From: Acidisarcina polymorpha
Lineage (GTDB): Bacteria; Acidobacteriota; Terriglobia; Terriglobales; Acidobacteriaceae
Length of the DNA stretch: 64,000 bases
Assembly: GCF_003330725.1 (NCBI RefSeq)
Contig: NZ_CP030840.1
Coordinates: 1,426,001-1,490,000, forward strand
Direction: 5' to 3'
A model generated the notes under the pieces. The model saw only the letters and a program-made list of their open reading frames with translations. It was not told where the DNA came from and searched no databases. Position numbers and translations under genes: made by a program. Below are positions 9,204 to 32,956 of this stretch, piece after piece. Position 1 is the first letter of the stretch; the number at the start of each line of letters is the position of its first letter.

Positions 9204-10459
9204 ATGCCTATTTCACAAGCACTCACGATCGAGCAGGCCCGTATCGATCCGCTCTCCAATGAGAACATTCAAAATCCTTTCGTCTTGTTTGAGCATCTTC
9301 GGCAAAAGGGACCGGTTTTTTGGAATGAGCAACGTTCTTTTTGGATGGTCTCCAGCTATGACACTGTCAAGTCGGTCCTGCAGGATGTAGAGCACTTCTC
9401 CTCGGACACGGAGGGCATGTCCATTAGGCGAGCTGAGGGCTTACCGGCCTCCTCGCGTAACAGCTTCGAGGTTAGCAAGCGGGTTTTTTTCATCGTCATA
9501 TTCAGGCCGCAGACGCGCCTGTGCATACGGTACACCGGAGGGCGATCATGCGCGGCTTCATGCCCTTGGTAGCGGATGTGGTGAAGACTTCTATACAAGT
9601 CCGTGTCGATCGGATGATCGACTCACTCTTCGCTAAAGGATCTTTCGACTTTGTCGCAGACTTTGCTTATCCGCTTCCTTCATTAGTCATCTTCGATCTT
9701 CTAGGCATACCGGAGGAGGACCATGCCACCATCCGTGATACCGCCAAACTGTTCTGGCTCTTCCCCGTGGCGATGTATCAGCAAGATCTAGAACTCCTTG
9801 ACAGGATTGCGAACCAAGCTCTGTGCGCCGAGGGTACGCTGCTTCGGATAATGGATCAGAGGCGCAGCAACCCGCAGATGGATCTCATCTCCTCGCTGAT
9901 CCGCCCAACTGAGGGAGACGAGTCCATTCCCGACGACGACATCGTGGTGATGTGTATTTTTCTTTTGATGGCGGGGCACGAAACTACAGCGAACCTTTTA
10001 AGCGGAGCACTGCTACATCTGCTCAGGGAGCGCGCACACTGGGATCTGCTCAGATCCAATCCACAAATTCTTGGGAGCGCTGTCGAAGAGTTGCTGCGCT
10101 TTATCAGCCCTGTCCTCTGGGTGGCACGCCTCGTCCGCAAAGATGTTCAGGTCGGAGGGAAATGGCTTCGCGCAGGAGAGGAAGTCCGAGTATCCATCGG
10201 CGCCGCAAACCACGATCCAACGCGGTTTGATCATCCAGAGAGACTTGACCTCACGAGGACCGGTAGCTCATCTCTTGCATTTGGTTATGGAATCCATACC
10301 TGCCTGGGCGCGGCTTTGGCACGCATGGAGACAAATGTTGCTCTTGCAAGTTTGCTGCGCCGCGCTCCGGGCATTCGCCTACTGAGCGACAGTGTAGAGT
10401 ATGCCCCAATCTATTTTTTCCGCGCGCTTAAATCCCTTCCCATTTCGATTGCCAGCTAA
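9204..10459 (+). pseudogene. Cytochrome P450, complete apart from one frameshift
   Basis: ATG 9204 follows GGAGAAACG. The first frame gives MPISQALTIEQARIDPLSNE...NPFVLFEHLRQKGPVFW up to about 9484. After a run of seven T (9484-9490) the protein continues one frame over as FFHRHIQAADAPVHTVHRRA, IMRGFMPLVADVV to the end. All P450 landmarks are present: I-helix LLMAGHETTANLL, K-helix EELLRF, heme loop SSLAFGYGIHTCLGAALARM with the Cys ligand. Restoring an eighth T would give a normal bacterial class-I P450 of about 418 residues. It opens the biosynthetic cluster. The homopolymer location makes sequencing error quite possible. Confidence 0.82.
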
Positions 10460-10857
10460 CACAGTGAATGTGGCTTCCGAAGGGTTGGGTATTCAGCGCG
10501 CGTTGCCTCAGGCTCGGCTTTGATGAGGGCATCGTCAACTTAACGGTGCTTGAGCAGCTGAGGTGCTGAGCGGCGCAGAGCGGTATCATCGTCATTGATT
10601 TCCGATCGAAGTCGTTGAGCACTGCATCGCCTCGACCCCAATCTCGCTTATGATTTCGTATCCTAAGCGTGCTGCGTACAATGCCGGGCACTGGGTGTGC
10701 CATTCAGGAAGCGATGGACGTCCGGCGCATATGTGATCGGTCCGTTCGCGAACTCGAAGGGGTGCGCGTGTGCGGCCCACCCTGTAGCTGCTGGTTCCAG
10801 TAAAAGGTCAAGTTCCGGACGTACATACAAGGCACGACGCTATTTGCACCAGAGCCC
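10460..10857. other. Gap between P450 and ABC exporter genes
   Basis: About 400 bases where the plus-strand P450 and minus-strand ABC gene converge. Small frames exist on both strands but none resembles a known family, and no clear hairpin terminator was found. It probably holds decayed sequence. Confidence 0.45.
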
Positions 10858-12480
10858 TCAAAACATGGTTGACGTTGGAGACCAGGCCGACAATCGTCCA
10901 TTGCACATCTGCAGGACGCGATCCGCGTAGTGGAAATACTGGCTGTCGTGAGTGATGGCGACCACGGCCTTACCGGCTCGCCTTAACTCTGGCAGCAGTT
11001 CTGAATAAAACATGTGCCGGAACTGCGGATCCTGATCGGCGGCCCATTCGTCGAAGACATATACGGGACGATCTTCCAGGTAGGCTGACACGAGAGCGAG
11101 GCGCTTCCTCTGGCCGGAGGAAAGCGCCATGGAGCTGAACCGCCCTTCGGTGATTGACGTTTTATCTCCCAGACGTAGCTTCTCCAGCAGGACAGTTGCT
11201 CGTGCGGCTGTTTCTAGAGAGCAATCAAAAATCGTATCGAACAGCTCGTAATCGGAGAAAACTGCCGAGAAGTAGGATCGGTAGCGATCGAGCTCATGAG
11301 CTTCAATATTTTTCCGGTTGAGTAGAATGCAGCCATCCTTCGGCTCATACAGGCCAAGCAGCAGCATCATGAGCGTTGTTTTGCCGCTTCCGTTCCCTCC
11401 CACAATAAAGACGATTTCGCTTGGTTGGAGAGTGAAATTCACTGGTCCGACCTTAAATGCGTGTGTGCCGTTTGTTGTGTATTCGTGTATGAGTTCCCGC
11501 AGCTCGATGCTTTCAAAATGGGGCTTAGGAGACGGCTTCTGCTGCGTCACTCTCGGAGCCTGCTGCATAATATCGAACATCGCAAGAACATGAGAGAGCG
11601 AAGCAGTGGCTCGTCCCATGTCCGGCAAGAGGTGCAAGAGCTCACCGATCGAGGAACTGACAAACAACATCACGATGATCGCCGAAGCCGTCACAGTTGC
11701 CGTAGCGTGCGGGCTGAACACGGGCAGCAGCAGCAGCAGCAGAGCGGAGAAGAACATCAGCTCGCCAAGGCTCGTGACCAGCGCGAACTGGCCCATGCAT
11801 TCTGCAACGAGCTGGGCTGTCTTTCCTGCGTACCTCGATACCGCTGTCTCAAGATAAAAGGTGGCGCGCTGACGGTTCAGTTGCAGCTCGCGAGCGCCCC
11901 GAACTAGCCTGGAAAGTGATTCATGAAGGGAGTCCAACGTCCGCCGTGCCTGGGCAGCGCGTGCTATCGGCCATCGTGTCGCGCGATTCTGGATGACCAC
12001 GCCGACGAGCAGAAACGAGAGTAGCATCACTCCAAAGGGCACATAGATCGCGAACAGGTAGGCGATGCTGCTTAAGACTACGACGGTGTTCAAAAGTGCG
12101 TTAATCAATGCCCGATAGCCTGCCGACATGATGTCCATGTCAGTGGTGAGAGCGGCGAGTATTTTGGGGTTACCGCAGCGGGAGATTTGCTCGATGGGCG
12201 TCTCCAGAATCAGCTTGCAAAGATCAACCCGCGCGCGCGAGATGGCGTTTTCAGAAAGCCGCATCATGAGGCGCACGCTAGCAAACCTTGCACCCGTGTG
12301 CATCAAGGCGCAAGCACAAAACATCTGCGTGGCAACCTGCCAGGAGAGTTGGTGCGCTATTACCTTCTCCACGACGACGATCAGAAGTGAGTACGACAAG
12401 CCTGCGCACAAGCCCAAAAGGATCACGAAGAAAATGGAGAGCCATTTCTTTACACCCAGGAAACGAACGAGCTGAATCAC
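10858..12480 (-). CDS. Cyclic-peptide/siderophore-type ABC exporter (fused permease and ATPase)
   Basis: A 540-residue half-transporter. Residues 1-290 carry six membrane helices; residues 330-535 are the nucleotide-binding domain with Walker A GGNGSGKTTL, Q-loop region YFSAVFSDYELF, signature LSSGQRKRLAL, Walker B PVYVFDEWAADQDPQFR and H-loop AITHDSQYF. The DEWAADQDP form and overall length are typical of the SyrD/PvdE exporters encoded beside NRPS genes, which pump peptides to the periplasm or outside. It lies 64 bp downstream of the NRPS on the same strand, so co-transcription is likely. It is probably the product exporter of this cluster. Confidence 0.92.
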   Translation of the reverse strand: MIQLVRFLGVKKWLSIFFVILLGLCAGLSYSLLIVVVEKVIAHQLSWQVATQMFCACALMHTGARFASVRLMMRLSENAISRARVDLCKLILETPIEQISRCGNPKILAALTTDMDIMSAGYRALINALLNTVVVLSSIAYLFAIYVPFGVMLLSFLLVGVVIQNRATRWPIARAAQARRTLDSLHESLSRLVRGARELQLNRQRATFYLETAVSRYAGKTAQLVAECMGQFALVTSLGELMFFSALLLLLLPVFSPHATATVTASAIIVMLFVSSSIGELLHLLPDMGRATASLSHVLAMFDIMQQAPRVTQQKPSPKPHFESIELRELIHEYTTNGTHAFKVGPVNFTLQPSEIVFIVGGNGSGKTTLMMLLLGLYEPKDGCILLNRKNIEAHELDRYRSYFSAVFSDYELFDTIFDCSLETAARATVLLEKLRLGDKTSITEGRFSSMALSSGQRKRLALVSAYLEDRPVYVFDEWAADQDPQFRHMFYSELLPELRRAGKAVVAITHDSQYFHYADRVLQMCNGRLSAWSPTSTMF

Positions 12481-12544
12481 CGAATTTGCCTAATCCTCGT
12501 CATGACACGAATAGAATTTTGATCCCGTCCAAACCTCTTCATGA

Positions 12545-15500
12545 CTATGAGATTTCGTTGACGAGCCACGCAAGTCGATTTTCCAAGTTGGCAACAAATG
12601 TCGTCATAAACTGCGAATCAAATAGTTCCTTTGCATAGTGGATCGTGACAAACAATTCGCCGCCTTCTTCGGAGAAGAAGATATCCAATTGCATGGGCTG
12701 CCGGGGCGAATGGTCTTGTTGTTGCATGACTGGCGACACGCGCAGATCGCCTGCCCATGTTTCGGATATCTCTTGAGGATGGTTTTGCATCCGCACCCAA
12801 ACCGGCATCGTCCGCGTGCCGAGGCGCTCCTCCACCAACCTGTACGGGTAAGGCATCCCACCATGTGTTAAGGCATCGATGATAGATCCCCGGACCGCGG
12901 CGACCGATTCAGACGCGGACATGGATTCCTCAAGACGCGCATGCAGGGGAAGCACGTTTACGAATCCCCCGACCACATGTTCCATGCTGTGATGCGTTCG
13001 GCCTGACGTGATTGTGGCTAAACAGAAATCAGGCTGCGAAGTGTAGTTCCGCATCACTAGACCAAGTCCCGACACAAGCAGCATGAAGAGACTAGCGTTG
13101 CTGCGGACAGCTACGCTGCTGAGCTTTTCATATAGATCCTGCATCACCATCTGGCGGATGGAAGAGGTTTTGTACGGGAACACCGCATCGTTCGGCATGT
13201 GAGGCCGCAGGGGTCGCGGTTGCTGAACGCTTTGGAGCTGCTGCTGCCAGTACGCATAATCGTCTGAAAACGGGTTCGTTCGCTGCCAGATCGCGTAATC
13301 GGAATACTGCAGTGCTGGGGCGCTAAGTGCAGGGCTGGTGCCCGCGAGATGAGCTTCGTAAAGATATTGCAGGTCCTGGGTAAGGAGTGTTCGCGACCAA
13401 CCGTCCACCAAGATGTTGTCCATGCATAACGACAGGATATGTCGTGTTGGATTAAGGCGAAGCAGGAGCATGTCGACGGGAGGAGTCGCATTCAGGTCGA
13501 ATACTGTGGACAGTTGAGAGCGCAAGCACTCTTGCACGAGGCTCTCTTCCACATCCTCGATCCGGATCTTCGGAGTCCAATTGAACATCACCTCGGCGAG
13601 TGGTTCTTCTCCTTGCTGACGATTGATGAATCGGGTCTTCAGGGCAGGATGACGCTCGGCAAGATCGTGCACCGCCATCTGGAGGGCACGGAGAGATAAG
13701 TTACCTTGCAGAAGTATGGCGCCCCCGATGTTGATCGGGGCAGTTGGGAAGTCCCTGTGAATCTTCCAGTAGGTCAGTTGAAAGTGCGAGAGAGGATATT
13801 GAGGATCGCGAACGGACAGCGGCACCGGGTGGGAGATGATCGGCGATGGAGTGTTTTCGTCAAGAAGGAGCGCCACATCCCGCAGCAGAGGGCGATCGAA
13901 GAATGTCTTAAGGGTCAGTTCCCTCGAAAAGCTCTTCCCCGTCCGGAGAACAAACTGAACGGCAAGGCGCGAGTCGCCACCGAGGTCAAAGAAGTTATCG
14001 TGCCGTCCAATTTTCTCGACGTTCAGGAGCTCCGTCCAAATCTCTGCGAGGAGAATTTCGGTGTTCCCCTGAGGAGCCTCATATGCATGCCTGCTGTAGG
14101 CCTGTTCTCCCGGATCCGGAAGTGCCCGGCGGTCGAGCTTTCCATTCGGAGTGGTGGGAAACGCGGCCATCACAGTGTACGCCGCAGGAACCATGTAGGC
14201 CGGCAGGTACGCGGAAAGGTGGGCGCGCAGCACTTCACTGGATGGTGTACTGTCCGAAACAGGGACGAAGTAGGCTAACAGGTGGAGATCGCCTGATTTA
14301 CTTTCACGAGCGATGACCGCTGCCTCGCGCACATCGGGATGCTCTGCCAGCCTAGCTTCAATCTCGCCCAGCTCGATACGGAAGCCGCGAATTTTGACTT
14401 GATTGTCATTGCGGCCGCGATAGATAACCTTTCCGTTCTCGAGCCAAACGGCGCGGTCGCCCGTGCGATACATCCTCGCGCCCGGCTCCGTGGAGAACGC
14501 GTGAGGCAGGAAGCGTTCTTCGTTGAGTTCGGGACGGTTGAGATAGCCGCGTGCAACGCCTGCCCCTGCGATGAATAGATCTCCTTCCACACCAACCGGC
14601 GCCGGCTTTCCATGTTCATCTAGGATGAAAAGCTGGGTGTTCCACAAGGGAGAGCCGATGCTGACCTCTTTGCTGCCCAACTGCAACTGCTCCGCTGTAG
14701 ACCAGATCGTCGTTTCGGTGGGTCCGTACAAGTTCCATACTTCATTTCCGCTGGCTGTCAGGGTTTCCGCGAGGCTTCGTTCTAACTCCTCTCCGCCACT
14801 AAGCACTTTGAGCCGTGGAGGTGGTAGCCAACCTACCGCGATGAGTTGTTTCCAAGCTGTTGGAGTTGCCTGCATGATGGTGACTGGCTCCCTGCGAAGC
14901 AACCTGGCTAGCTGGGTTGCGTCGCCTGCTACCTCAGTGGGACACAGCACCACGCATGCTCCGCTGATCAGAGGCAGATACAGCTCCAGTCCAGCGATAT
15001 CAAATGTAATCGTGGTGGTGGCGAGCCACCGGTCTGCGGGAGAGAGTGCGAGCCTCTCCGCAAAGCACTGGAGTAGGTTGACGACACTCCGGTGTTCGAT
15101 CATGACACCCTTCGGGCGGCCGGTCGAGCCAGACGTATAAAGGATGTAAGCGACCATGTCGGCGGTGCGCATTGGGGCCGAAGGATTCTGGCGTGTTTCG
15201 GGAGTATCCTCCATCTCGGCATTGTCCACCAGGATGAGCCTGGGGCAGCCGTCCAGAGACGCGATGCTCGGCGCGAGACTTGTGTTTGTCAATATCGCCA
15301 CGGGGCAGCTGTCGGTCAGTACCCACTCAATCCGATGAGCGGGATGCGTGGGATCCAGTGGAATATAGGTCGCACCCACTTTCATTGTCGCCAGCAGGGC
15401 CACGAGCATGGATACGCTTCGGTCTAGGTACATGGCCAGGTACGCGCCAGGCTTTACGCCGGCGACAAGCAGGGCGTGCGCAAGGATGTTTGCCTGCGTG

Positions 15501-18500
15501 TTTAGCGCGTCGTAGGTGACGCGTTGCCCCTGGAAAACAACTGCTTCTCTATTAGGGGTGTGTGCCGCTTGCGCTTCGAACAGAGTTTCAATCCGCTGAA
15601 GCGCGGAGTAGGGATGGGCTGTTTTATTGAAGGCGACCAGAGTCTGGTGAGCTTCTGCGGAGGGCAGGATCTGGATGCGCGATGGCGGAACATGTGGCGT
15701 TTTTTGGAGTGCCTCCACAAGCTCCTTCAAGGCGTGTTCGAGATAGCCGCACAAGCGTGATGGATCGATGTCGGCTGTTACCTGGGCGGTGAGCGAGAAG
15801 CCTTCGTGCCAGTCATCTACATTTATGCTGATGGGATAGTTCGTCCATTCGTCTGCCCTGAGTGTGGCGACACCGTCAATCAGGTCGTCGATCTTTATAG
15901 CGTTTTCGCGCCCTGAATTGTGACGATAGTTCAGCAGGGCACTAAAAAGCGGCATACTTGTATCCAGCTGACTGGCACGTTTTGCCAAGCTGAGGGGTGC
16001 ATCCTCATGCTGAATCAGGTTTGTCAGCGTCTGGTGCACGTATCGCAGTTCGGATTCAACACTTCCTCGACTCAGTCTGACGCGCATTGGCAGAGTATTG
16101 ACGAACAAACCGAGCGTCCGCTCGATACCGCTCCAGCTTGCTGAGCGGCCAAGCAGCACGGTCCCGAAGATCGCATCGTCGATGCCTGAAAGCTGTCCGA
16201 CGACTACTCCATAGGCAAAATGAAACAGGCTAGCTGGACTTACTTGGAAGGTTTTCGCGGTATCCCGGATGGCTCGCGACAGGCTCACATCCAGGCAAAG
16301 ATTGGCCTGCTTCCATGCATGATCAACTTCGGAATGGGGAATTCCGTAAGGATATGTAGCGCCTTTCGTGCCCGCCAGTAGTTCACGGAAGAACTCTGCG
16401 TGTTTCTTCTGTGACGTACCGGAGGTGACGTGGGCGATGTGATTGCGGAACTGGCCTGGCGCGGGCAAGTTGGTCGCTGTATTGCTCATGTGTGCGGCTA
16501 TCTCTTCGGTCAAAACCTCGACACTTACATGGTCCAGGAGAAGATGATGTTCTAAAACAAGAACAATCCAGCGACTCTCGCTGGGATCATAAGCGAGGAA
16601 GACACGAAGGAGCGGTGCGTTGCTGATATCGAAATGGTAATGCTGAGGATCAAAGCGCTGCTGGAGCTGCGCGACAACACTCCCGCGATCGATGTTCAGA
16701 TCGATCTCCTGCACTTTCAAATCTGCTTGTCGTAAAACAACCTGCACGGGCGATCGTAGACCTTTCCAGAGCACGATGGTTCGCAGAGAATCGTGGCGTT
16801 CGCAGCAGAATTTGAGCGCGAGAATAAACTGGTTTACGAGTTCGCTGTCGCGGAACGAGAGGATAACCCTGGAGACATAAGGGTCGCTATCAGGGGATGA
16901 CAAGTGGTGAAAGAAAATACCTTCCTGGAGTGGGGACAACGCATAGATGTCCTGTATGTTGGCGTCTCCGCCGGGCGTCCCCGCCACGATTTTCTCGATC
17001 TCCTCCTGGCTCACCTGGGCCAGAGGCACCATCCAGGGCTCAATCGGACCTTCGCCGATGCTATTGAGGGGCACAATGTGCTGCTCTGATGCGCCTTCCA
17101 ATTCTTTCGCCAATTGCGAGAGCACGGGATGAGAGAAAACCTTCGCGAAGCCAAGCTCTCTACCCATCCGTTGTCGCACTATCGAGAGGAGGTGCAGCAC
17201 GCGAATGGAGTCTCCGCCAAGCTCGAAGAAGTTGTCGTTGCGGCCAATGCGGTCAAGCACGAATAGCTCGGACCACACCGCCGCCAGCGATGTTTCCAGC
17301 AGTCCGCGAGGCTCTTCGTAGACGCGCTGTGCATATGCGTCTTGGCTGGCGATCGGAAGCGCATTACGGTCCAGCTTTCCGTTGCTTGTTAGGGGAAGCT
17401 GCCGCAGATGCACATACGCAGCGGGAACCATGTACTCTGGCAGACTGATGGTCAGGTAAGCCCGCAACGCAGCCGGAAGGATGGGCTCGGCGTATGAGTT
17501 GTCATCGGTTAGGGTGTAATACGCGACGAGCTGCTTATCGCTGCCATCCTGCCGATCCGCAGTGACAACCACGGAATCTCGAATGCCGGGATACTCTGCC
17601 AAACGGGCCTCAATCTCCCCCGCCTCAATCCTAAAACCGCGAACCTTGATCTGATAATCGCTGCGCCCTAGATATTCAAGCGAGCTATCGGGAAGATAAC
17701 GGACCAGGTCGCCGGTTCGATACAGGCGATCTCCTGAAACGAATGGATTCGCCAGGAAACGCTCGGCGTTCTCCTCGGGGAGGTGATGGTAGCCCCGTGC
17801 GATGCCAGCGCCCCCTAGATAAAGCTCGCCCGTAACCCCGATCGGAACCGGCTCTTTTTGTTCATCCAGCACGTACACCCTCGTGTTCCATAAGGGCTTC
17901 CCGATCGATACATGTCTGACATTCTCGGGCCGCAGCTCGGCAACGGTAGCATTCACGGTGGCTTCTGTGGGGCCATAGGCGTTATACAGTCTTGGGCGAG
18001 GCTCCGGATGCGCGAACCATGTGGTGAGCGCTTGCGAAGAGACAGCATCGCCTCCGATGGCGATCTGCCGAATGCATGCCGGCATACGAGAGCCGGAAGA
18101 CTGCAGCAACTGCTGCCAGAACACCGGCGGTAGGTTCAGCATGGTGATTCCGACCTGTTCGCAGCGGGATAAGAAAGCCTGTGTGCTGGCTAGCCATTCT
18201 TCGGAGCGTAGTACCAAGCAGGCACCAGAGAGCAGTGCGCCGAAAATCTCTTCGACGGACATGTCAAAAGCGACGGAGGCGAACTGCAGCAAGCGATCTG
18301 AGTTCGTGATCCCATAAGTGGCGCGCAGGGCTTCAATCTGATTGACCACACTACGGTGCTCGATCATCACGCCTTTCGGCTGTCCCGTGGTACCGGATGT
18401 ATAGATGATGTAGGCCAGATTGCGAGAAGTTAGCCCCTCAACGTGCGGCTTGGGATGATAGTCATTCTCCGCGGCCCAGAGCCCAACATCGGCGCCCAGA

Positions 18501-20260: not shown

Positions 20261-20347
20261 TTGCTCTTCATGTCGTTCAAGCTGTGGCAGCACGGATCTA
20301 GCACCATCTTCGCAATTATGGTCAAAGCGAATCAGAACCATTCGGAT

Positions 20348-20623
20348 TTAAAACCCATTCCTGCGGCCTCGGATGCCTTTCACGCCGTGTTTAAGAAACC
20401 GATGGAAGATCACGTACTTGGCTTTTTGATATAGACACAGAGATAACAGCATTCCAACGGCTTTATTCCCATATTCGCTTCTGCTCAGCGGCGTCAAGAG
20501 ATCCGAGAAGGTATGAACGGCAGGACCGAGCTCCGGCCTCGCCAGACTCTGTTGCTGCATTGTTATCCGACAGCGGTGCAGTTTTGTGGAATAAACATCT
20601 CGGTGGCTTGTTCTTGTCAGCAT
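20348..20623 (-). CDS. Possible small protein upstream of the NRPS
   Basis: A 91-codon frame ending a few bases before the most upstream possible ATG of the NRPS (20341). The sequence is MLTRTSHRDVYSTKLHRCRI...LSRSEYGNKAVGMLLSLCLY, with a basic C-terminus (FLKHGVKGIRGRRNGF). It does not match MbtH or a carrier protein. Position suggests it could lead the NRPS operon, but base composition and motifs give little support, and it may just be leader sequence. Confidence 0.25.
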   Translation of the reverse strand: MLTRTSHRDVYSTKLHRCRITMQQQSLARPELGPAVHTFSDLLTPLSRSEYGNKAVGMLLSLCLYQKAKYVIFHRFLKHGVKGIRGRRNGF

Positions 20624-24031: not shown

Positions 24032-24480
24032 GGTTCTGTCGCAATGAAGACGACTTGCTGTTGTTGCACTGACGGCATCGCAATAGAACCGCGGCTCGCA
24101 GGTTCTTCCAACAAGCAGTCGAGCGGAACGGCGCACCCGAGAAAATGACTCTAAATAAGACCGGCGCGAATGTAGAAGCTCTGGAGACCATGTACGCAGG
24201 ACGAGGGGAGACGATCGTTGTGCGACAGGTAAAGTACCTGAGCAACATCGTCGAGCAAGACCACCTTGCCGTGCAACGTCGTACGATGCCGATGTTCGGG
24301 TTCCAGGACTATCTCCCCGCCCGCATCCTTCTCTCCGGCATCCAGCTCGTGCATATGATTAGCAAAAGGCAAATGAACACCAGTGGCGGCGGACGCTCCC
24401 CCACAGCAGTTCTACTCCTTGGCAGGGTAAGCCCGAACCTATGCTTTTCATCGTTCATACACCTTTACCGCAACAGAACC
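24032..24480 (+). mobile_element. IS6-family insertion sequence remnant (both ends, C-terminal transposase part)
   Basis: The left end GGTTCTGTCGCAATG (24032-24046) and right end CCGCAACAGAACC (24468-24480) are IS6-like inverted ends. An extra inverted copy, CATCGCAATAGAACC, lies at 24076-24090. Between them, 24145-24420 encodes TLNKTGANVEALETMYAGRG, RQVKYLSNIVEQDHLAVQRR, TMPMFGFQDYLPARILLSGI and QLVHMISKRQM, the C-terminal part of an IS6 DDE transposase with the last catalytic Glu (VEQDH). The N-terminal two-thirds is deleted. Confidence 0.8.
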
Positions 24481-24662
24481 TCGGTGAGTCACCTCGAGTC
24501 TAAAGCGCCTGAACCAGCAGGAAAACGCCTCACAGATTACCCCGGGTGACAGTGTTGTTGAGTTTGGCCCAAGATAATGTTTGTCACGACCGGGGAAATC
24601 TGATCACAGCAGGTGTTAGTGTGTCGCAACCCATCCAGAGGTCCCAAACACTGATACAACAA

Positions 24663-25082
24663 ATGGATAAGTTGGCAACTGTCGTACTTTCAGGATTCTC
24701 CGGCCCCTGCGATCGTCATCAGGAAGAGCGAACAAGTGGAGACAATGCACTGGGCCTAGATCGTTACCCCAGCACCCCGCCCAGGTTCCACTCGCTTGAC
24801 AGCCTTCGTGCGGGGATGATGTTCCTCGGCATCGTATTATATGGAGCTCTGCCGTACACTAGAATTCGCATGTGGCCGGTTAACGACCCCACCGCACATC
24901 CCATATTTTGGAATGCAATCGTCTTTGCTATACATGTTTTTCGGATGCCTCTCTTCTTTGTGTTGGCAGGTTTCTTCGCAAACCTCCTCTTCAAGATGTC
25001 TGGCTGCGAGTTGAGCTCGATCAACCGCGCAAACTGTGCTGGCATTCTTCGAACCGCGTTCCTCTATAAGAGGATCAGATAG
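24663..25082 (+). pseudogene. Truncated membrane acyltransferase (acyltransferase-3/OafA-like)
   Basis: From about 24783 the frame reads FHSLDSLRAGMMFLGIVLYG, ALPYTRIRMWPVNDPTAHPI, FWNAIVFAIHVFRMPLFFVL, AGFFANLL, the start of an acyltransferase-3 family protein (first three membrane helices, with the usual SLD.LRA motif). It loses homology near 25040 and stops at 25082, exactly where an IS6 N-terminal fragment begins. Normal members have about 350-400 residues, so about two-thirds is missing. It may once have acylated the cluster product. Confidence 0.65.
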
Positions 25083-25300
25083 GCCCATACACCGCGAATC
25101 TTCACGTAAGTCTCGTCAATCCGCCAGCTCGTCGATCGAAATGGGGCACCGTCAGCGCAGTCGCTTCTCGGTCTCGGCAACGTACCGCCCAACCAGTGAT
25201 AGATGGTGGAAGAATCGGCGCTCACGCTCCGCCCGCCCATCATCCTGCTCTAGATCGCGATAGCCAATGCCATACCAGCAGTACCAACGCCAAACAATGA
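25083..25300 (-). mobile_element. IS6-family transposase N-terminal fragment
   Basis: The minus strand from 25298 encodes IVWRWYCWYGIGYRDLEQDD, then VGRYVAETEKRLR, the DNA-binding N-terminus of IS6 transposases (.RWY.RYGLSYRDLEE....PELEKRLR). In another frame WRIDETYVKIRGVWA (25128-25083) contains the first catalytic Asp. Frameshifts break it. Its 3' limit abuts the truncated acyltransferase. Together with the C-terminal piece at 24145 on the opposite strand it accounts for most of one transposase. Confidence 0.7.
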
Positions 25301-25501
25301 TTTGGCTGCCAACCGAACACTGACATAGCCAGCTCCGCTCGTCTTCATCCCGTTTTCACGTCGACATCCCTATGTCGGTTCCAGGAGGTGGCGGACGGAG
25401 GTCCCGACGATGCCGAGTCGTCTTGCGAGTTCTCAATTTGGAGAGCTTTTCCTCGCTATAACGTCTAGTTTCGGAAGTCTTGTCAGCGACATAGTTCCGT
25501 C

Positions 25502-25625: not shown

Positions 25626-26669
25626 ATGAGGATCGCCGGAGTAAAAGCGGTCATACCTTCGCAAGTGATTGATAACGCCACGATAGAGCTGATGGTTGCC
25701 GAACACAGCAGTCGAACACTGAGTGTTCAACTGAATGACGTCCTTAAGCGCATAAGGTATTATCTGCTTCACTCGGGCTCACATCAGCGGCGCTGGCTAG
25801 CCAGTGGCGAGAGACCATTCGACCTCTTACAACAAGCCATCTCTGAGACACTCGCTCAAGCAGGTGCCAGAGGATCAGATGTCGATCTCATCATCTACAC
25901 TGGCGTCGATCGTGGCTTTCTCGAGCCCGCGATGGCAAATGTGGTCGCTGTCGCTTGCGGGATGCCGCAAGCTCACTGCTTTGATATCGTCGACGCCTGC
26001 ATGAGCTGGGTCAGAGCCATCTTTGTGGCCTACACTATGTTCCGCTCCGGCGTGTATAAGAATGCTCTTGTCGTTAACTGTGAATGCAGCATGCGTCCCG
26101 GAGGGCGGGTCAATCCAGGATGCTTCCAACTTGATAGCGTGGATGCGGTTGAGTGGAATTTTCCCGCGTACACCATGGGAGAAGCAGCCTCTGCAACCTT
26201 TCTCATCCGTGATGACTCCAGACCCTGGGAGTTCCACTTCAGCAGCCACTCGGATCTGAGCGACCTTTGCAGTATTCCGCTGGAGTGCTTCGATCGTTAC
26301 TGCCAGCCGCAGCCCCGGCTTGGACGTAATGGGGCCAACCAGTTCACCTCATTTGGGGGCGATATGTTCCGCCTTGGATGGTCACATGGCGTGGAGATAT
26401 TCAAGCGCCTGTCCACTCCTCTTGACGAGATAAAGGAAATATTTCCCCACGCCGCATCCAAGAAGCTGTGGATGGACATGGGAGCCGAAGTCGGCGTCCA
26501 GGACAAGATCAGATTTATCTATCCCGACTATGGGAATCTGGTTTCGGCTTCTGTTCCCGCCGGGATCGCAATGGCGCAGGAAGAAGGAACGATCCAAGAA
26601 GGTGATACGCTCGCCGGGTGGGTAGGAAGTGCGGGAATGTCCTTCGCTTCCTTTGCGTTTCAGCTATAA
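25626..26669 (+). CDS. KASIII-like ketosynthase lacking the HQAN histidine
   Basis: ATG 25626 has AGGAG 6 bases upstream; the frame stays open to 25410 but that part is not protein-like. The 347-residue product has the thiolase/KASIII fold: LIIYTGVDRGFLEPAMANVV, active-site Cys 125 in FDIVDACMSWVRAIF, and the Asn loop DYGNLVSASVPAG (Asn 304). Where KASIII has HQAN it reads MDMGAEVG (283-290), so the catalytic His is absent. This suggests an acyltransfer or partner role rather than ordinary decarboxylative condensation. It is the first gene of a five-gene operon, 70 bp before a canonical KASIII. Compare PqsB/PqsC-type pairs in which one partner is degenerate. Confidence 0.85.
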   Translation: MRIAGVKAVIPSQVIDNATIELMVAEHSSRTLSVQLNDVLKRIRYYLLHSGSHQRRWLASGERPFDLLQQAISETLAQAGARGSDVDLIIYTGVDRGFLEPAMANVVAVACGMPQAHCFDIVDACMSWVRAIFVAYTMFRSGVYKNALVVNCECSMRPGGRVNPGCFQLDSVDAVEWNFPAYTMGEAASATFLIRDDSRPWEFHFSSHSDLSDLCSIPLECFDRYCQPQPRLGRNGANQFTSFGGDMFRLGWSHGVEIFKRLSTPLDEIKEIFPHAASKKLWMDMGAEVGVQDKIRFIYPDYGNLVSASVPAGIAMAQEEGTIQEGDTLAGWVGSAGMSFASFAFQL

Positions 26670-26738: not shown

Positions 26739-27761
26739 ATGACAATGACCCCGCCCTTAGACGCCCGATTACACGTAGTATCTCTCGGACACTTCCATCC
26801 GAGAGGCATTATTGATAACGAGTTTCTCGAATCATTAGATATCGGTGCAGATGCTAAATGGATCGCAGAGCGAGTTGGTATACGCTCACGCAGAACCGTA
26901 TTACCCCTTGACTACATCCGAACTACCAAGAACTGCGACCTGCGGGCGGCCGATGAAGCTGCTGAGTTTACAAATGCTGAGACTGGTGCCGAGGCGGCCC
27001 GGATGGCAATGGCTCGCGTAGGTCTGCGGCCAGAGGACGTTGGAATGATTATTTCTGGCGGTTGCTCACCGCGATATTCAACACCAGCAGAGGCATGCAC
27101 GATAGCTGCTGAGTTAGGTATCGAATGCCCCGCATTCGACGTCAGTTCAGCCTGTTCGACCTTTGTGGCCCAGATCCATATGCTGAAGAATATGAGACCG
27201 GAGGCCCTACCTGAGTATATTTTACTCGTCACCGCCGAGAATACTACGCGGAAGGTCGATTATGGCGATAGAAAGACTGCTGTATTGTGGGGGGATGGAT
27301 CCACGGCCGCAATAGTATCTACACGCATACCTGGAAGGTTATCAGTTATAAAAACTTCCCTGCAGAGCGATCCTAGTGGATGGGACAAAGTAACCATTCC
27401 CACTGGGGGCTTTTTTAAACAGGATGGACCTGCAGTTCAGTCTTTCGCAATACGAAAAAGCGTTCTGGTTATCGACGAACTATGTTCGAGAAGTGACGAG
27501 AGGATTGAACTGGCGGGCTTTGTAGGCCATCAAGCAAATTTGCTAATGCTCAAAGCCGTCTGCAGAAAAGCCGGCATTCCGGAGAGGCATCATTTGTTCA
27601 ACGTCGATAGATATGGAAACTGTGGGGCTAGCGGCGCACTGTCGGTACTCTCTGAGCTCTGGGGCGATTTACCCGTAGGACTTATTTGTGTGGCTCTCGT
27701 TGGTTCAGGGTTGACCTGGGGCGGGATGTTGTTTGATGCGGGTCCACCTCCTAGCCCCTAG
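26739..27761 (+). CDS. 3-oxoacyl-ACP synthase III (FabH-like)
   Basis: A 340-residue KASIII with the full Cys-His-Asn triad: Cys 139 in PAFDVSSACSTFVAQ, His 264 in FVGHQANLLML, Asn 294 in RYGNCGASGA. The N-terminal ADAKWIAERVGIRSRR is the classic FabH specificity segment, and LLVTAENTTRKVDYGDRKTA, LWGDGSTAAI is the standard core. It probably starts acyl chains by condensing an acyl-CoA with a malonyl-carrier, or releases or modifies chains. Second in the operon, 6 bp before the dehydratase. This gene and its neighbours look more AT-rich than flanking DNA, hinting at acquisition from elsewhere. Confidence 0.9.
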   Translation: MTMTPPLDARLHVVSLGHFHPRGIIDNEFLESLDIGADAKWIAERVGIRSRRTVLPLDYIRTTKNCDLRAADEAAEFTNAETGAEAARMAMARVGLRPEDVGMIISGGCSPRYSTPAEACTIAAELGIECPAFDVSSACSTFVAQIHMLKNMRPEALPEYILLVTAENTTRKVDYGDRKTAVLWGDGSTAAIVSTRIPGRLSVIKTSLQSDPSGWDKVTIPTGGFFKQDGPAVQSFAIRKSVLVIDELCSRSDERIELAGFVGHQANLLMLKAVCRKAGIPERHHLFNVDRYGNCGASGALSVLSELWGDLPVGLICVALVGSGLTWGGMLFDAGPPPSP

Positions 27762-27767
27762 GTCAAT

Positions 27768-28244
27768 GTGAACATGGTAGATAAGTCGACCCAAGCGGAT
27801 CGAGATGAACTCCTGGCATTGTTGCCACAGACAGTGCCTTTCCGATTTGTGGATCAGATTCTCGAGATTGACGACCAGCATGTCTGTGCAACATATCAAT
27901 TTCGCGGTGACGAGTACTTTTATACGGGTCATTTTCAGGGCGATCCGGTAACACCCGGTGTGATTCTTCTAGAGGCCATGGCACAAGGAGGTGTGGTCGT
28001 GCAGGCGCTATACCTGATGCGCAAAGTGTTGGATGCTTCACAGGTCGTCAAGCTACGTACGGTATTAACTGACGTTCAGGGTGAATTCTATCGTCCGGTT
28101 CTTCCGCCAGAAGGTGTCATAATCCGCAGCGAGGTTGTACTGTGGCGTGCCCGCAAGATTCGCTGCCACATAAAAATGTTCAACCAGAACTTGGACTTAG
28201 TTGCTACAGCAACCATAGGCGGAATGGGAGTGTCAATTGCATAG
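27768..28244 (+). CDS. FabA/FabZ-type hotdog 3-hydroxyacyl-ACP dehydratase
   Basis: A 158-residue single hotdog domain. VPFRFVDQILEIDDQHVCAT, then YTGHFQGDPVTPGVILLEAM, AQGGVVVQALYLM contain the catalytic His (GHFQGDP) and Glu (LLEAMAQ). The FQGDP and TPG forms are typical of secondary-metabolism and thioesterase-like relatives rather than housekeeping FabZ. The start is GTG 27768 or ATG 27774. It lies 6 bp after the KASIII and overlaps the following KASII by 8 bp. It should introduce the double bond after each elongation; no ketoreductase lies inside the operon. Confidence 0.88.
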   Translation: MNMVDKSTQADRDELLALLPQTVPFRFVDQILEIDDQHVCATYQFRGDEYFYTGHFQGDPVTPGVILLEAMAQGGVVVQALYLMRKVLDASQVVKLRTVLTDVQGEFYRPVLPPEGVIIRSEVVLWRARKIRCHIKMFNQNLDLVATATIGGMGVSIA

Positions 28245-29526
28245 AGTTGTCGTTACTGGTGTCGGTGTTATAGCTGCAAATGGTTCTTGCGTGCGTGACT
28301 TTGAAACTGCGCTAAGAGAAGGTAGGTCGGGGATACGGAGCCACTCGCGCATGAGGGAATTGAACTTGCACTGTCAGGTTGCAGGAGAGCCAGAAGTGAG
28401 TGAGGCGAGACTGGCGAAAACATTTAATGCGCTGACGCTCCGTACCATAAACAGCGGTATGCTCTATGCGGGACTAGCCGCAATAGAGTGCTGGCGAGAT
28501 GCTGGGTTTGCCTACGATCCCTGCATCCCTGGGCCAGTGGACTGGATGACTGGGGCGGTAGTTGGTACTGGCCTAGGAGGTGTCGACACTATCTCTGAGA
28601 AGCTAGTTTCGATGATCAATCTCGGAATGGCGCGGCGCATGGGAAGCGCGCTCGTAGAGCAATTCATGAGTAGCGCAGTAAGCGCCTTCGTGGGAGGACT
28701 ACTGGGGTTGGGTGGCGAGGTTAACACCATAAGCAGCGCATGTGCTACGGGTACAGAGGCTTTGGTTCAGGCGGTCAGATGTCTAAAGATGGGTCAAGCC
28801 TGCCGGATGATGGCTGGAAGTGCCGAGGGAGCGTCAGTTCATGCGTGGGCGGCTTTTGACGCCATGCGGGTCTGCTGTAGAGCCTTCAACGACGAACCTG
28901 AACGGGCTTCGCGCCCGCTCAGCAAGACTGCTGGAGGGTTCGTCCCTTCCGCCGGTGCAGGCATGCTGATGCTAGAGACACTCGACAGTGCTCAAAGCCG
29001 CGGAGCCCGTATCTATGCTGAAATTGTCGGCACTGGCGCGACGTGTGGTGGGCAGCGCAATGGGGGATCCATCACCTCTGGCAACCCCTCTGGGATGCGA
29101 CGCTGCATACAGAATGCGCTCTCCTCAGCCCACCTAGAAGGCGCAGATATTGATTACATAAACGGTCACCTGACAGCTACAATAGCCGACACAAAAGAGG
29201 TTGAAAATATAAAGGCTGCGCTGGATCTGCCTGAAGATTTGTTCCCCTTGCTCAATTCAACTAAGTCGATGATAGGCCATTCACTTGGGGCATCTGGCTC
29301 CATTGAGTCGGTTGCCACGGTGCTTCAACTCGACCGAGGGTTTATCCATCCATCACTCAATACAGAAGATCTGCACCCATCCGTGGAATGGTTGCGGCCG
29401 CGAATCCCGCAGACTTGCATCGCAAGCCCAATCTCTACAGCAATGAAAGTAAGCTTTGGATTTGGAGATGTAAATGCATGCGTGATTCTTCGAAAATGGG
29501 GCTGTAAGACTTCGGCTGCTTGTTAG
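28237..29526 (+). CDS. 3-oxoacyl-ACP synthase II (FabF-like)
   Basis: A 429-residue elongating ketosynthase starting at TTG 28237 with GGGAG 6 bases upstream, overlapping the dehydratase stop. Catalytic residues: Cys 169 in NTISSACATGTEA, His 311 in YINGHLTATIADTKE (family form NAHGTST), Lys 343 and His 348 in STKSMIGHSLGASG. The HLTAT sequence replaces the usual HGTGT. It is the only elongating KS in the operon and has an intact Cys, so it is a KS alpha and not a chain-length factor. It probably extends the chain held on the ACP encoded next. Confidence 0.9.
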   Translation: MHRVVVTGVGVIAANGSCVRDFETALREGRSGIRSHSRMRELNLHCQVAGEPEVSEARLAKTFNALTLRTINSGMLYAGLAAIECWRDAGFAYDPCIPGPVDWMTGAVVGTGLGGVDTISEKLVSMINLGMARRMGSALVEQFMSSAVSAFVGGLLGLGGEVNTISSACATGTEALVQAVRCLKMGQACRMMAGSAEGASVHAWAAFDAMRVCCRAFNDEPERASRPLSKTAGGFVPSAGAGMLMLETLDSAQSRGARIYAEIVGTGATCGGQRNGGSITSGNPSGMRRCIQNALSSAHLEGADIDYINGHLTATIADTKEVENIKAALDLPEDLFPLLNSTKSMIGHSLGASGSIESVATVLQLDRGFIHPSLNTEDLHPSVEWLRPRIPQTCIASPISTAMKVSFGFGDVNACVILRKWGCKTSAAC

Positions 29527-29604
29527 GCTACCAACACCTACCAAGAGGCGCCTTATCACTTGAAACTACTTCGGAATCGTGACTCATATACTTAGGAGCG
29601 AAAT

Positions 29605-29859
29605 TTGACGAATAGCGAAATATATTGTGGAGTGGAAAGCGTCATTCTGACTTACACGGTTAAAGATGGTCCAATAAAGATCACTGAAGGAACCAACCTG
29701 TCTGAGAATTTAGGTATTAATTCTGCGCGTATGGTTGATATCGTGTTGGATCTTGAAGATAAGTTCAAAATTTCAATTCCTGATTCGGACATGGAACAAA
29801 TGAATACCGTTGGAGAAATTGTCACACTCATCTATTCACTGTGCAATGGAGCATCGTGA
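29605..29859 (+). CDS. Acyl carrier protein
   Basis: An 84-residue four-helix carrier starting at TTG 29605 (AGGAG 6 bases upstream). The phosphopantetheine site is in NLGINSARMVDIVLDLEDKF (Ser 40); the usual DSL is NSA, so the Asp before the Ser has become Asn. Downstream KISIPDSDMEQMNTVGEIVT, LI is normal ACP helix III-IV sequence. It is last in the ketosynthase operon and presumably carries the growing acyl chain before transfer to the NRPS. No phosphopantetheinyl transferase is in the window. Confidence 0.88.
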   Translation: MTNSEIYCGVESVILTYTVKDGPIKITEGTNLSENLGINSARMVDIVLDLEDKFKISIPDSDMEQMNTVGEIVTLIYSLCNGAS

Positions 29860-30062
29860 ATATATCTCGGAGCTTTTGTCCCCCCAAGCAAACCTGGCAG
29901 GGACAACCGATCTGGAATACATTATGCTCTCGCGCGTTACATCCATAGCCGCCCACCAACAGATGTCGCGATAGCGCGACTGATGGAAGAGGACCACCAC
30001 GGGATTTAAGAGCGCCACATATTCCTGCCCTAACCTGGCAGATCATCAGGATTCGGAGTCAT

Positions 30063-30812
30063 ATGAAGAAACTCGAAGGTAAGATCGCTATCATCACCGG
30101 CGGAAACAGTGGCATCGGTTTAGCAACGGCCAAGCGCTACGTCGAGGAGGGCGCCTACGTCTACATCACCGGCCGACGGCAGAAGGAACTGGATCTTGCC
30201 GCTGAGCGTATCGGGAGAAACGTCACCGCAGTTCAGGGGGATGTTGCCGTCACCGCCGACCTCGATCGACTGTATGAACAAGTACGCAGCGAGCAGGGTC
30301 GCGTCGACATCGTTTTCGCGAATGCCGGTATCGGAGTGTGGGCTCCTATCGAGCACGTCGCAGAGAGCTGTTTCGATTCAATCTTTAACGTGAACGTGCG
30401 CGGAGTTTTCTTTACCGTGCAAAAAGCGCTTCCGTTGATGCCCGACGGCAGCTCCGTCATCCTCTGTGGTTCTTCCAGCGCAACCAAGGGCATGCCCGGT
30501 TTGAGCGTGTACATCGCCAGCAAGGCTGCGCTTCGCGGCTTCGCCCGGAGTTGGTCGGCGGAGTTGAAACCCCGAAGGATCCGCGTCAACGTCTTGACTC
30601 CTGGCCCGACCGAGACTCCCATCTTCGGCAAAGCTGGCCTGCCCGCCGACCAGATCGACGCGATGAAGTCGAAGGTCGCTTCCGAGACGCTGACCGGCGT
30701 CTTCGCCGACCCCGATGAGATTGCAAAAGCCGCAGTGTTTCTGGCCTCCGATGACAGCACCTTCATCATCGGAGCGGATATTCCCGTCGATGGTGGCCAT
30801 GCTCAAGTTTAG
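30063..30812 (+). CDS. SDR-family oxidoreductase
   Basis: A 249-residue classical short-chain dehydrogenase: cofactor loop ITGGNSGIGLATA (residues about 11-23), NAG motif (FANAGIG), Ser in ILCGSSSATKG, YIASKAALRGFARSW with catalytic Tyr and Lys, and the C-terminal GADIPVDGGHAQV. The ITGRRQ segment after strand beta-2 favours NADP(H). It could supply the ketoreduction missing from the ketosynthase operon, but such SDRs are abundant, it is 200 bp away, and it looks more GC-rich than that operon, so the link is tentative. Confidence 0.88.
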   Translation: MKKLEGKIAIITGGNSGIGLATAKRYVEEGAYVYITGRRQKELDLAAERIGRNVTAVQGDVAVTADLDRLYEQVRSEQGRVDIVFANAGIGVWAPIEHVAESCFDSIFNVNVRGVFFTVQKALPLMPDGSSVILCGSSSATKGMPGLSVYIASKAALRGFARSWSAELKPRRIRVNVLTPGPTETPIFGKAGLPADQIDAMKSKVASETLTGVFADPDEIAKAAVFLASDDSTFIIGADIPVDGGHAQV

Positions 30813-31119
30813 GAGACATGGTCTGGGATGTCGGACCATCGGAGCTGAACTCGAACGACGGCCAAGGCAAACCAACTGCGAGTCTGGGTAAATATGTCGT
30901 GGTTTGGAAGGGCCTGGAAGCAGGCCCATCAGAGGTTTGGAGATCGGCCTGGAAGCTGCAAGGCCCGGTTGTCGCAAGAGGTGCGACGATCAAGACGCAG
31001 AAGAATTCTGTAAAGAAAGAATCTGCTCCTTAGATGACCTGCTCCCCCGGGAACCGCACATACGGAAGTATGATCTCGGATTCAGGGAGGGGCGGAATTG
31101 CCGAGGAATCAGCGTGGCG
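30813..31119. other. Gap after the SDR gene
   Basis: About 300 bases before the IS3 remnant. A 71-codon plus-strand frame (30818-31033) is present but carries no recognisable motif. I see no clear terminator. It is probably scarred by insertion sequence activity. Confidence 0.4.
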
Positions 31120-31414
31120 AAGCGGGGACTATCGCGGCGTTGAAGCAGGTGTAGGCGGGGCGCAAGGTGGAGGACGTGGCATGGGAGTACAGCGTGTCCA
31201 GACACACAATCCCTACCTGGAAAGCCGAGCCGATGAAGTTCTTCACGAACGGCTGTTGTTACTGGCTCGAGAAAGGCCGCGCTATCGATATCGTCGATTG
31301 CGCGTGCTGATCGAGCGGGAAGGGGAACGCGTGAACCACAAGCGGCGGTACAGGATCTATCGCGCAGCCGGGCTGTGCTTAAACGGAAGAAGCGCAGACA
31401 TTGTCTTCGCGTAG
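31120..31414 (+). mobile_element. IS3-family insertion sequence remnant
   Basis: Plus-strand fragments of both IS3 reading frames. The orfA part, TIAALKQV (stop) AGRKVEDVAWEYSVSRHTIP, TWKAE, has an in-frame stop. The orfB part at about 31230-31370 reads DEVLHERLLLLARERPRYRY, RRLRVLIEREGERVNHKRRY, RIYRAAGL. The DDE core and terminal repeats are gone. It separates the SDR from the second P450 gene. Confidence 0.75.
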
Positions 31415-31549
31415 ATCTGCCAAAGACACAGACGCGAGCGTCGAACTAGTAAGCAGCTTTCGTTACCGATCGAGAGGGTGCTACCGACGGGCCACATAAT
31501 AAGACGGCGTCCATTTTTGGTATCTACAAACATGGAGTGTTAACGATCG

Positions 31550-32956
31550 ATGGAATCTCCGAATCGAAACCCGGCTAGTGACACGCAACACTCTAGCCAA
31601 GAGCGAGCGGGAGCAATGAAGCCGTTCGCCACCTTGCCGGGCATTCCATTCTTCAGCACCATTATCCCGCTGAGCCGCAACGCTCTGAGCTTCTTTATGC
31701 GGACATTTGATACCCACGGAGACCGTGTGCAACTCCGTGTTTTCAGCCGCAATGTTTTACTCTTGTGCAATCCCGATGACATTGAAGCCGTGCTTGTCAA
31801 CGAGCGCGATAGCTTCGGGCGGTCATCAGAGGTGCGCAATCTCCGCCCCATCCTCGGCAATGGCCTCTTTGCCAGCGAAGGTGAGTTATGGCGCAGTCAG
31901 CGGCGCCTGATTCAGCCGAAATTCCACAGTAGTGCGATTCAGAGTTATGCCAGCGTAATGCTGGAGTGCGTCTCGCAGCGGATCGAGGGTTGGCGCCCAG
32001 GAGATTTGAGGAACCTCCACTTGGAAATGATGCACTATACACGCGACGTAGTCTGCAGGACTCTATTTGGCAGCAAACCGGATGTCGATGCCATGGCCAT
32101 CGCTCAGGCCGTCACTACTGTCTTCGATGATTTGCGGAGTGAGGTTCTCTACCTCAATTTATGGAGAAGATTGCCGCTGCCGCGAAGCATTTGTTGGAAT
32201 CGGGCTGTAAAAGTCTTGGATCAGGCGATCTCGCGGATGATCTCTCATCGGAGGAGGGCGAGAGCGGGAACGGGCCAATCCGCCTCGTCTTCCGACATGC
32301 TGAACGTTCTTCTCGATGCGCGCGGTGAAGATGGCACATCGATGTCCGACCGGCAGATCCACGATGAAATCATGAATATGTTTATAGCGGGTCACGAGAC
32401 TTCCGCGCTCACGCTTGCGTGGGCAATGCATCTTCTCAGCACGAACCCCGACATTCAGGATCACGCCGCTTCTGAGGTTCTCAAGGTCACAAGCAACCGT
32501 CCCTTGCGTCCAGAGGATATGCCAAGCCTTCGCTATCTCTCTGCGATTGTCCAGGAGACCCTCCGGCTCTATCCGCCGCTGTGGTGCATTGGACGCTACA
32601 CAATCCGGAATACGACGCTTTCTGGCTTTCCTGTCGCCAGAGGGACCCACATCTGGTTGTGTATCTATCGGCTTCATCGCGATCCCCGCTGGTTCTCTGA
32701 TCCTGAGGCATTTCAGCCGGAACGCTGGCAGGATGGGACTTCCTTAAAGAAGTTCACTTATGTCCCTTTTGGGGTGGGGCCACGTGTGTGCATCGGTCAA
32801 CACTTCGCTATGGTTGAAATTGTCCTTGGACTGGCAGCTATTCTCTCTCGCTTTCGCCTTTCCAGCCCACCTGGAAGTAGCGTAGCCCCCGAGGCCTGGA
32901 TGACCCTTCGCCCTAAGCATGCGGTGTCACTCCGGATCGATGCGCGCTCACGGTGA
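31550..32956 (+). CDS. Cytochrome P450 (CYP4/CYP102-like clade), intact
   Basis: A 468-residue soluble P450. I-helix MNMFIAGHETSALTLAWAMH (residues about 276-295), K-helix ETLR (336-339) with LYPPLW, PERF-type FQPERWQDG, and heme loop YVPFGVGPRVCIGQHFAMVE with Cys 414. The sequence is of the CYP4/CYP102 kind, often fatty-acid or acyl-chain hydroxylases, unlike the shorter class-I P450 at 9204. An in-frame ATG at 31616 (MKPFATLPGIPFF) is a good alternative start. It closes the likely cluster and could oxidise the acyl chain or peptide. No ferredoxin gene is nearby. Confidence 0.92.
   Translation: MESPNRNPASDTQHSSQERAGAMKPFATLPGIPFFSTIIPLSRNALSFFMRTFDTHGDRVQLRVFSRNVLLLCNPDDIEAVLVNERDSFGRSSEVRNLRPILGNGLFASEGELWRSQRRLIQPKFHSSAIQSYASVMLECVSQRIEGWRPGDLRNLHLEMMHYTRDVVCRTLFGSKPDVDAMAIAQAVTTVFDDLRSEVLYLNLWRRLPLPRSICWNRAVKVLDQAISRMISHRRRARAGTGQSASSSDMLNVLLDARGEDGTSMSDRQIHDEIMNMFIAGHETSALTLAWAMHLLSTNPDIQDHAASEVLKVTSNRPLRPEDMPSLRYLSAIVQETLRLYPPLWCIGRYTIRNTTLSGFPVARGTHIWLCIYRLHRDPRWFSDPEAFQPERWQDGTSLKKFTYVPFGVGPRVCIGQHFAMVEIVLGLAAILSRFRLSSPPGSSVAPEAWMTLRPKHAVSLRIDARSR

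Follow-up and report, generated by a model that had tools for sequence, protein, structure and literature searches.

We analysed a 64,000-nucleotide stretch of the Acidisarcina polymorpha chromosome (the window; C1:1,426,001-1,490,000 of a 7.6-Mb genome in 5 contigs), in which 24 kb carry a nonribosomal peptide synthetase (NRPS) with an exporter, P450 genes, two GT1-type glycosyltransferases (GTs) and a set of ketoacyl synthase (KAS), dehydratase (DH) and acyl carrier protein (ACP) genes. These 24 kb are probably a mosaic, with three separately derived biosynthetic blocks lying on one chromosomal stretch: the NRPS and exporter (block A), a P450-GT-GT-acyltransferase cassette (block B) and a KASIII-DH-KASII-ACP set (block C). 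We favor this reading because the nearest kin of each block lies elsewhere without the other blocks. The same gene set was not found together in another genome in the phylum, family or KASIII-locus samples. An earlier note on this DNA had proposed the genes as a candidate for a single new pathway; in a synteny test set beforehand, no linkage between the NRPS half and the KAS half was seen in relatives in any of the sets searched. The locus is an uncharacterised two-module NRPS with a starter condensation (C) domain and an exporter inside a mosaic, not a new kind of cluster. The blocks could still jointly make one product.

Domain and family assignments were made with Pfam and NCBIfam, which recovered nearly every gene that the earlier note had listed. 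The exporter, the C-A-T-C-A-T-C architecture of the NRPS (A, adenylation; T, thiolation), both GT1-type genes, the KAS set, the short-chain dehydrogenase/reductase (SDR) and P450b were confirmed, whereas P450a proved to be frameshifted. The gene set is far above chance expectation. The G+C content is 0.56 in the NRPS gene, 0.50-0.54 in KASIII-DH-KASII, 0.39 in the ACP gene and 0.56 in the whole window. The phylum and family genome samples used below were even draws rather than complete sets, and this genome was the sole member of its genus among those sampled.

The P450-glycosyltransferase cassette and the adjoining scars

The genes and relics of block B, with the mobile-element scars between the halves, are as follows.
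9204-10459, plus strand: P450a, frameshifted at a run of seven T, two overlapping open reading frames (ORFs); Pfam p450 on 9521-10459.
20792-21016, plus strand: relic of a P450, last 75 codons, interrupted by two stops; 52% identity with the paralogous P450.
21113-22420, plus strand: GT1-type glycosyltransferase 1 (GT1); Pfam UDPGT/EryCIII-like_C; paralogue of 63% at 5.876-5.878 Mb.
22773-24029, plus strand: GT1-type glycosyltransferase 2 (GT2); Pfam UDPGT; paralogue of 61% at 5.874-5.876 Mb.
24075-24481, plus strand: insertion-sequence (IS) relic, IS240-type DDE transposase end; 71-75% to copies on contigs C3, C4 and C5.
24580-24990, plus strand: acyltransferase-3 relic, N-terminal part; 82% DNA identity with the complete gene, which lies at 5.873 Mb.
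24994-25076, plus strand: relic, end of a GT2-type gene; 79% DNA identity.
25076-25370, plus strand: relic of a second multi-copy element; 69-77% to several places.
34123-34473, plus strand: relic; 87% DNA identity to a place adjoining the acyltransferase of the 5.87 Mb locus.

Block B would be a cassette of P450, two GTs and an acyltransferase that occurs a second time on this chromosome, at 5.87 Mb; in the window, its acyltransferase and the P450 adjoining GT1 are reduced to relics. The paralogous locus (contig C1, 5872246-5879080) contains P450a' (47%), GT1' (63%), GT2' (61%) and a convergent acyltransferase (76% over 119 aa). In the 40 kb read there, nothing matched the NRPS or a KAS gene of the window. 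This recurrence of the cassette without NRPS or KAS genes speaks against the proposed single pathway. The relics at 20792-21016, 24580-25076 and 34123-34473 all match the 5.87 Mb locus, the last of them matching no other place in the genome. Neighbors of the paralogous cassette include a FAD-monooxygenase-like gene and a flavin-reductase-like gene (the latter below the cut-off). When GT2 was searched at E 1e-75 in 396 phylum genomes, the matches listed, with at most four candidates scored per genome, comprised four on the same chromosome (GT2 itself, GT1, GT1' and GT2') and a single gene in genome G094 (35%).

P450a consists of two overlapping frames, 9204-9572 and 9521-10459, with 39% and 47% identity, respectively, to the paralogue at 5.878 Mb, which is in one frame. 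The frame switch at 9485-9503 coincides with the seven-T run at 9484-9490 and reflects either a sequencing error in the homopolymer or a broken gene. A third P450, the 75-codon relic with two stops, stands immediately 5' of GT1.

The NRPS half and the KAS half are not contiguous: two sequences between them, 24075-24481 and 25076-25370, resemble elements present in several copies in the same genome. The interval between GT2 and the KASIII-like gene is made up of four pieces: an IS end, an acyltransferase start, the end of a GT2-type gene and the second multi-copy element. Downstream, an IS3-type HTH_21 match within 31034-31414 lies below the Pfam cut-off, and the segment 31131-31229 recurs in three copies (71%). 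The blocks could have come to lie together through the mobile elements and duplication that left these traces. Repeats were also considered as borders of an NRPS insertion and were dismissed, since only the homology of GT1 with GT2 and weak pairs of two copies emerged.

The KAS genes and a widespread operon

Block C, the KASIII-like gene in front of it and the two genes behind it are arranged as follows.
25626-26669, plus strand: KASIII-like enzyme, corrected start, with Cys, His and Asn kept; Pfam; relative of 81% in genome G528.
26739-27761, plus strand: KASIII with SSAC / GHQAN / YGN; Pfam and motifs.
27768-28244, plus strand: FabA/Z-like dehydratase (DH); Pfam.
28237-29526, plus strand: KASII, FabF-like, on a long branch; Pfam.
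29605-29859, plus strand: acyl carrier protein (ACP), with the Ser in INSA; Pfam.
30063-30812, plus strand: SDR oxidoreductase, not demonstrably the operon's reductase; Pfam.
31550-32956, plus strand: P450b, full length; Pfam.

Relatives of KASIII were sought by scanning two peptide patterns over genome contigs, and the best 80 of 166 loci were analysed. At least 11 named phyla are represented among the 80 loci, and at least nine among the loci whose KASII entered its tree. Their usual gene order is KASIII, FabA, a second dehydratase, KASII and ACP, to which one or two SDRs, an acyltransferase and a phosphopantetheinyl transferase (PPTase) are often added; we refer to this set as the fatty acid synthase (FAS)-like operon. 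Window queries found DH in 65 of the 80 loci, KASII in 63 (62 at 50% or above and one at 30%) and ACP in 54, with identities to the operon of 48-61% for KASIII, 41-53% for DH and 50-58% for KASII (30% at one locus). At E 1e-6, none of the 80 loci carried an NRPS, GT or P450 of the window's type, and the claim that the NRPS has its 'own' ketosynthase/ACP operon is not borne out; at E 1e-3, one locus gave a 25% match to the NRPS. At least 5 kb were present on both sides of 44 of the 80 loci, many lying on short contigs, so that absence weighs less for the rest. An operon of this kind spans 9036-15656 of locus L075 (one of L065-L144), and its ACP has an NSA motif. A literature search, judged by titles or the starts of abstracts, found no description of the FAS-like operon.

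Block C is probably a stripped form of this operon, preceded by a KASIII-like gene of other kinship and situated beyond the IS scar. FabA stood between KASIII and DH in all 66 loci that had both within 3.5 kb; in the window 6 bp separate these two genes, and a FabA query matches only the DH (27%). Acyltransferase and PPTase occurred in 53 and 52 of the 80 loci, respectively, and queries with the operon's versions gave no match anywhere in the window at E 0.1. The SDR at 30063-30812 was rejected as the operon ketoreductase, being 28% identical to it and 28-32% identical to the L075 operon SDRs; the nearest SDR seen belongs to the same genome (52%, L006). Nor did a ketoreductase plus enoyl reductase pair turn out to be fixed in the operon, since the best hits overlapped in 43 of the 51 loci with both, leaving mostly one SDR. 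All nine genes with two separate SDRs were present in 5 of the 80 loci.

In the trees, the end branches of the window synthases measured 1.39 for KASII (median 0.16) and 0.79 for KASIII (median 0.24). Neither had a supported sister, and KASII branched off first in the midpoint-rooted tree. Among near-invariant columns, KASII deviates in 15 of 140 (largest value among relatives 10, median 1) and KASIII in 1 of 68, and the three synthases retain catalytic Cys/His/Asn or Cys/His/His. Judged by sequence, block C may be either in use with a changed task or in early decay. A KASIII relative in another genome of the same family (L048/L049, G103:C33) has several biosynthetic neighbors: large polyketide synthase (PKS) genes containing methyltransferase domains, genes for a free acyltransferase and a PPTase, and one for a C-T didomain protein.

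The start of the KASIII-like ORF, previously placed at 25410, was moved to 25626 because the alignment with close homologues sets in at residue 70-73 and a 347-aa relative of 81% identity begins there. This closest relative comes from G528, a genome of the same family, and lies 46 bp from a P450; two GT1-type genes are found ~4 and ~7 kb from it, and the 60 kb read there held no match to the KASIII block, the NRPS or the exporter. Further relatives of 66% and 48%, from 297 phylum genomes, are located beside an acyl-AMP ligase-ACP protein, a DUF3419 gene and a gene weakly like acyl-CoA dehydrogenases; no KASIII block was near them in the contig parts shown, both lying near a contig end with one side out of view. 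The DUF3419 gene is one that we take to be BtaA-like. The gene set shared by these two loci (L038:946-8037 and L039:2945-8743), to which L038 adds an ABC1 kinase-aminotransferase fusion, is possibly an unusual amino-lipid pathway. Membership of the KASIII-like gene in the FAS-like operon was discarded, as only 1 of the 80 loci had a match to it, a weak one of 24%.

The NRPS and its exporter

Block A consists of two genes, given here with the condensation domains of the NRPS (C1 to C3, distinct from the contigs of the same names).
10858-12480, minus strand: SyrD/PvdE-type cyclic peptide exporter (membrane and ATPase parts); TIGR01194.
12545-20341, minus strand: NRPS, 2598 aa, C1-A1-T1-C2-A2-T2-C3; Pfam, three Condensation, two AMP-binding and two PP-binding.
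18911-20224, minus strand: domain C1, starter-type, HHLLIDG; PDB matches and motif.
15644-16954, minus strand: domain C2, HHLLLDH; domain placement and motif.
12560-13801, minus strand: domain C3, terminal, degenerate motif DNILVDG; PDB matches and motif.

The NRPS is a single open frame with both T-domain serines present (GGDS), and Pfam found no thioesterase (TE) or reductase domain in it. C domains of the RzmA, CDA and EntF kind acylate the first residue. The best PDB matches of domain C1 were 7c1k/7c1h/7c1p (194 bits), EntF (164), ObiF1 (148) and CDA synthetase I (140), followed by 1l5a (94). Passages of one paper name 7C1H, 4JN5 and 5JA1 as RzmA, CdaPS1 and EntF (PMC7804268). The ranking of PDB similarity, led by RzmA-Cs, EntF, ObiF1 and CDA synthetase, supports the assignment of C1 as a starter domain of the acylating kind, as the earlier note had supposed. 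The adenylation codes, taken by hand from the motifs, were DMENAGAVNK for A1 and DILQLGLIWK for A2. We take the A1 code to be closest to ornithine codes and the A2 code to be that of glycine, in line with the residues proposed before, ornithine-like and then glycine. A literature search for these two codes found no printed occurrence. Close to its start, domain C2 has the stretch HHLSSPDSD, which we presume to be similar to the dual epimerisation/condensation (E/C) motif; on this likeness, the first residue may become D.

Domain C3 resembles ordinary C domains, with 5u89 as its best PDB match (138 bits), and carries DNILVDG in place of HHxxxDG, so that both motif histidines are gone. According to excerpts from two papers, the second His positions substrates in RzmA-Cs (PMC7804268), and some C domains remain active when it is lost (PMC11546977). 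Whole-genome searches for the NRPS used this last domain as the sole query. They found no close relatives in the 396 phylum genomes, the nearest being 28-33% identical, and none at E 1e-60 in 250 family genomes except in the genome itself.

The exporter scored 377 bits with TIGR01194, against a curated cut-off of 286.2, and its gene follows that of the NRPS after 64 bp in the same orientation. Parts of the exporter gene recur with 94-96% DNA identity at 5.893 Mb of this chromosome, ~14 kb from the paralogous P450-GT-GT locus. At this identity, their copying is probably a younger event than the cassette duplication.

We infer substrates, chemistry and the order of events from these features. 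Domain C1 would N-acylate an ornithine-like residue, A2 would add glycine, release may occur through, or despite, the terminal C domain without motif histidines, and the exporter would carry the product out. Our best guess is that the NRPS alone most likely makes an acyl-Orn-like-Gly.

SolG of solanimycin, the best NCBIfam name for the NRPS, was rejected as a close homologue, since its two matching stretches reached 1500 bits where the cut-off is 2200. A 91-aa ORF at 20348-20623 had no Pfam match and was dropped as an MbtH-like partner. The same genome has a second NRPS locus (contig C1, 6400001-6420000) with a P450 33% identical to P450a. Consecutive minus-strand ORFs of 100-160 aa fill 36289-39028, as from one or more broken genes.

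Alternative explanations

Several observations weigh against a mosaic. From 10.8 to 33 kb all annotated genes are biosynthetic, export or mobile-element genes and no housekeeping gene was seen, as in real clusters. With five KAS/DH/ACP genes closely packed in one direction and the catalytic residues of the three synthases intact, block C lacks the look of a dead remnant. The grouping of KASIII-like gene, P450 and GTs in G528 may be older and shared with blocks B and C. The KASIII relative of G103 (46%), near PKS genes and directly before the C-T didomain protein, is a precedent for recruiting a KASIII of this family into such clusters. Finally, genomes were sampled rather than exhausted, and the short contigs of many of the 80 loci bear on the same point. 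One alternative is a single functional cluster, in which an acyl chain from the KAS/ACP genes would be loaded by C1 onto the ornithine-like residue, oxidised by P450b, glycosylated by the two GTs and exported; the chain would perhaps be unsaturated, because the sole SDR may not be an enoyl reductase. The closeness of C1 to acylating C domains, the open and tightly spaced KAS genes with their catalytic residues, and the number of KASII departures, above that of any relative and fitting a changed task, all favor such a cluster. We nevertheless consider it unlikely, since synteny was conserved in no searched set, a mobile-element scar separates the halves, P450a is frameshifted and the GTs are part of a cassette that exists without the NRPS. 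Block C could be a leftover, a truncated FAS-like operon drifting without function after transfer, as the missing FabA, acyltransferase and PPTase, the long KASIII and KASII branches and the adjoining relics would suggest. This too is improbable in view of five consecutive open genes, the catalytic residues kept in three synthases and the single departure of KASIII. Quite unlikely, in our judgment, is a recently assembled hybrid, in which the stripped operon and the KASIII-like enzyme would supply an unusual acyl chain to the NRPS, a dead C3 would hand acyl-Orn-Gly to an external acceptor or dock a P450, and the duplicated GT pair would finish the product. The mosaic of three blocks remains the reading that we prefer.

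The terminal domain allows two further explanations. C3 might be a docking platform like the X domain of glycopeptide synthetases, a dead terminal C domain that would recruit a P450 to the carrier-bound dipeptide. Its terminal place, its resemblance to ordinary C domains, the change of HHxxxDG to DNILVDG and the P450 genes nearby are consistent with this; X domains are described, in the portions of the two sources used here, as LCL-related domains with a broken HHxxxDG that recruit monooxygenases (PMC8949500, PMC11546977). The X motif HRxxxDD is nevertheless absent from C3, and the P450a paralogue exists without an NRPS. In addition, C3 scored only 82 bits with 4tx2, presumably an X domain structure, compared with 138 for 5u89, and we regard docking as very doubtful. 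Heterocyclisation by C3 is more remote still and would be a great surprise: DNILVDGWS fits DxxxxDxxS by its letters, the motif of heterocyclisation (Cy) domains being given as DxxxxD in an excerpt of PMC11546977, but the closest PDB chains of C3 are other C domains, the bacillamide Cy domain reached only 53 bits, and no module of the Cys/Ser/Thr type follows.

Comparison with known systems

Soil Acidobacteria can be rich in biosynthetic clusters, according to the part of PMC9723581 consulted. A search for literature on acidobacterial lipopeptide NRPSs, judged by title, found no such locus, and one for such a cluster in general led nowhere among the matches listed. In searches of plasmid proteins, the best identities among the matches listed were 38% for the KASIII-like enzyme, 31% for KASIII, 35% for KASII, 39% for the NRPS and 32% for GT2; the KASIII-like match, on a Paraburkholderia caribensis plasmid, is surrounded by unrelated genes. 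Cluster calling based on proximity would treat the 24 kb as a single pathway with a single predicted product. From the relics and the paralogue in the same genome, one can suggest how mobile elements and duplication can bring unrelated biosynthetic sets side by side, which makes the locus a clean test of when neighboring genes are partners. The locus further draws attention to a FAS-like operon present in at least nine phyla, for which our literature search returned no description.

Like the starter-C lipopeptide NRPSs (rhizomide RzmA, CDA synthetase), the window NRPS has an acylating N-terminal C domain with a canonical HHxxxDG followed by A-T modules; unlike them, it has two modules only and ends, without a TE, in a C domain that lacks the motif histidines. 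With the glycopeptide X domain, C3 shares a terminal, C-like nature, a broken HHxxxDG and P450 genes in the vicinity, and differs in having DNxxxDG rather than HRxxxDD, no TE behind it and no Oxy-type P450 shown. The exporter agrees with SyrD/PvdE exporters (TIGR01194) in scoring above the curated cut-off and standing beside an NRPS, and no difference was seen. Block C has the KASIII-DH-KASII-ACP order and the NSA-type ACP of the widespread FAS-like operon, as in L075, in contrast to which it lacks FabA, acyltransferase and PPTase, has a dissimilar SDR and is preceded by a KASIII-like gene. The 5.87 Mb locus, which differs from the window in lacking the NRPS and KAS genes and in having only exporter fragments ~14 kb off, is like it in its P450a', GT1', GT2' and acyltransferase homologues.

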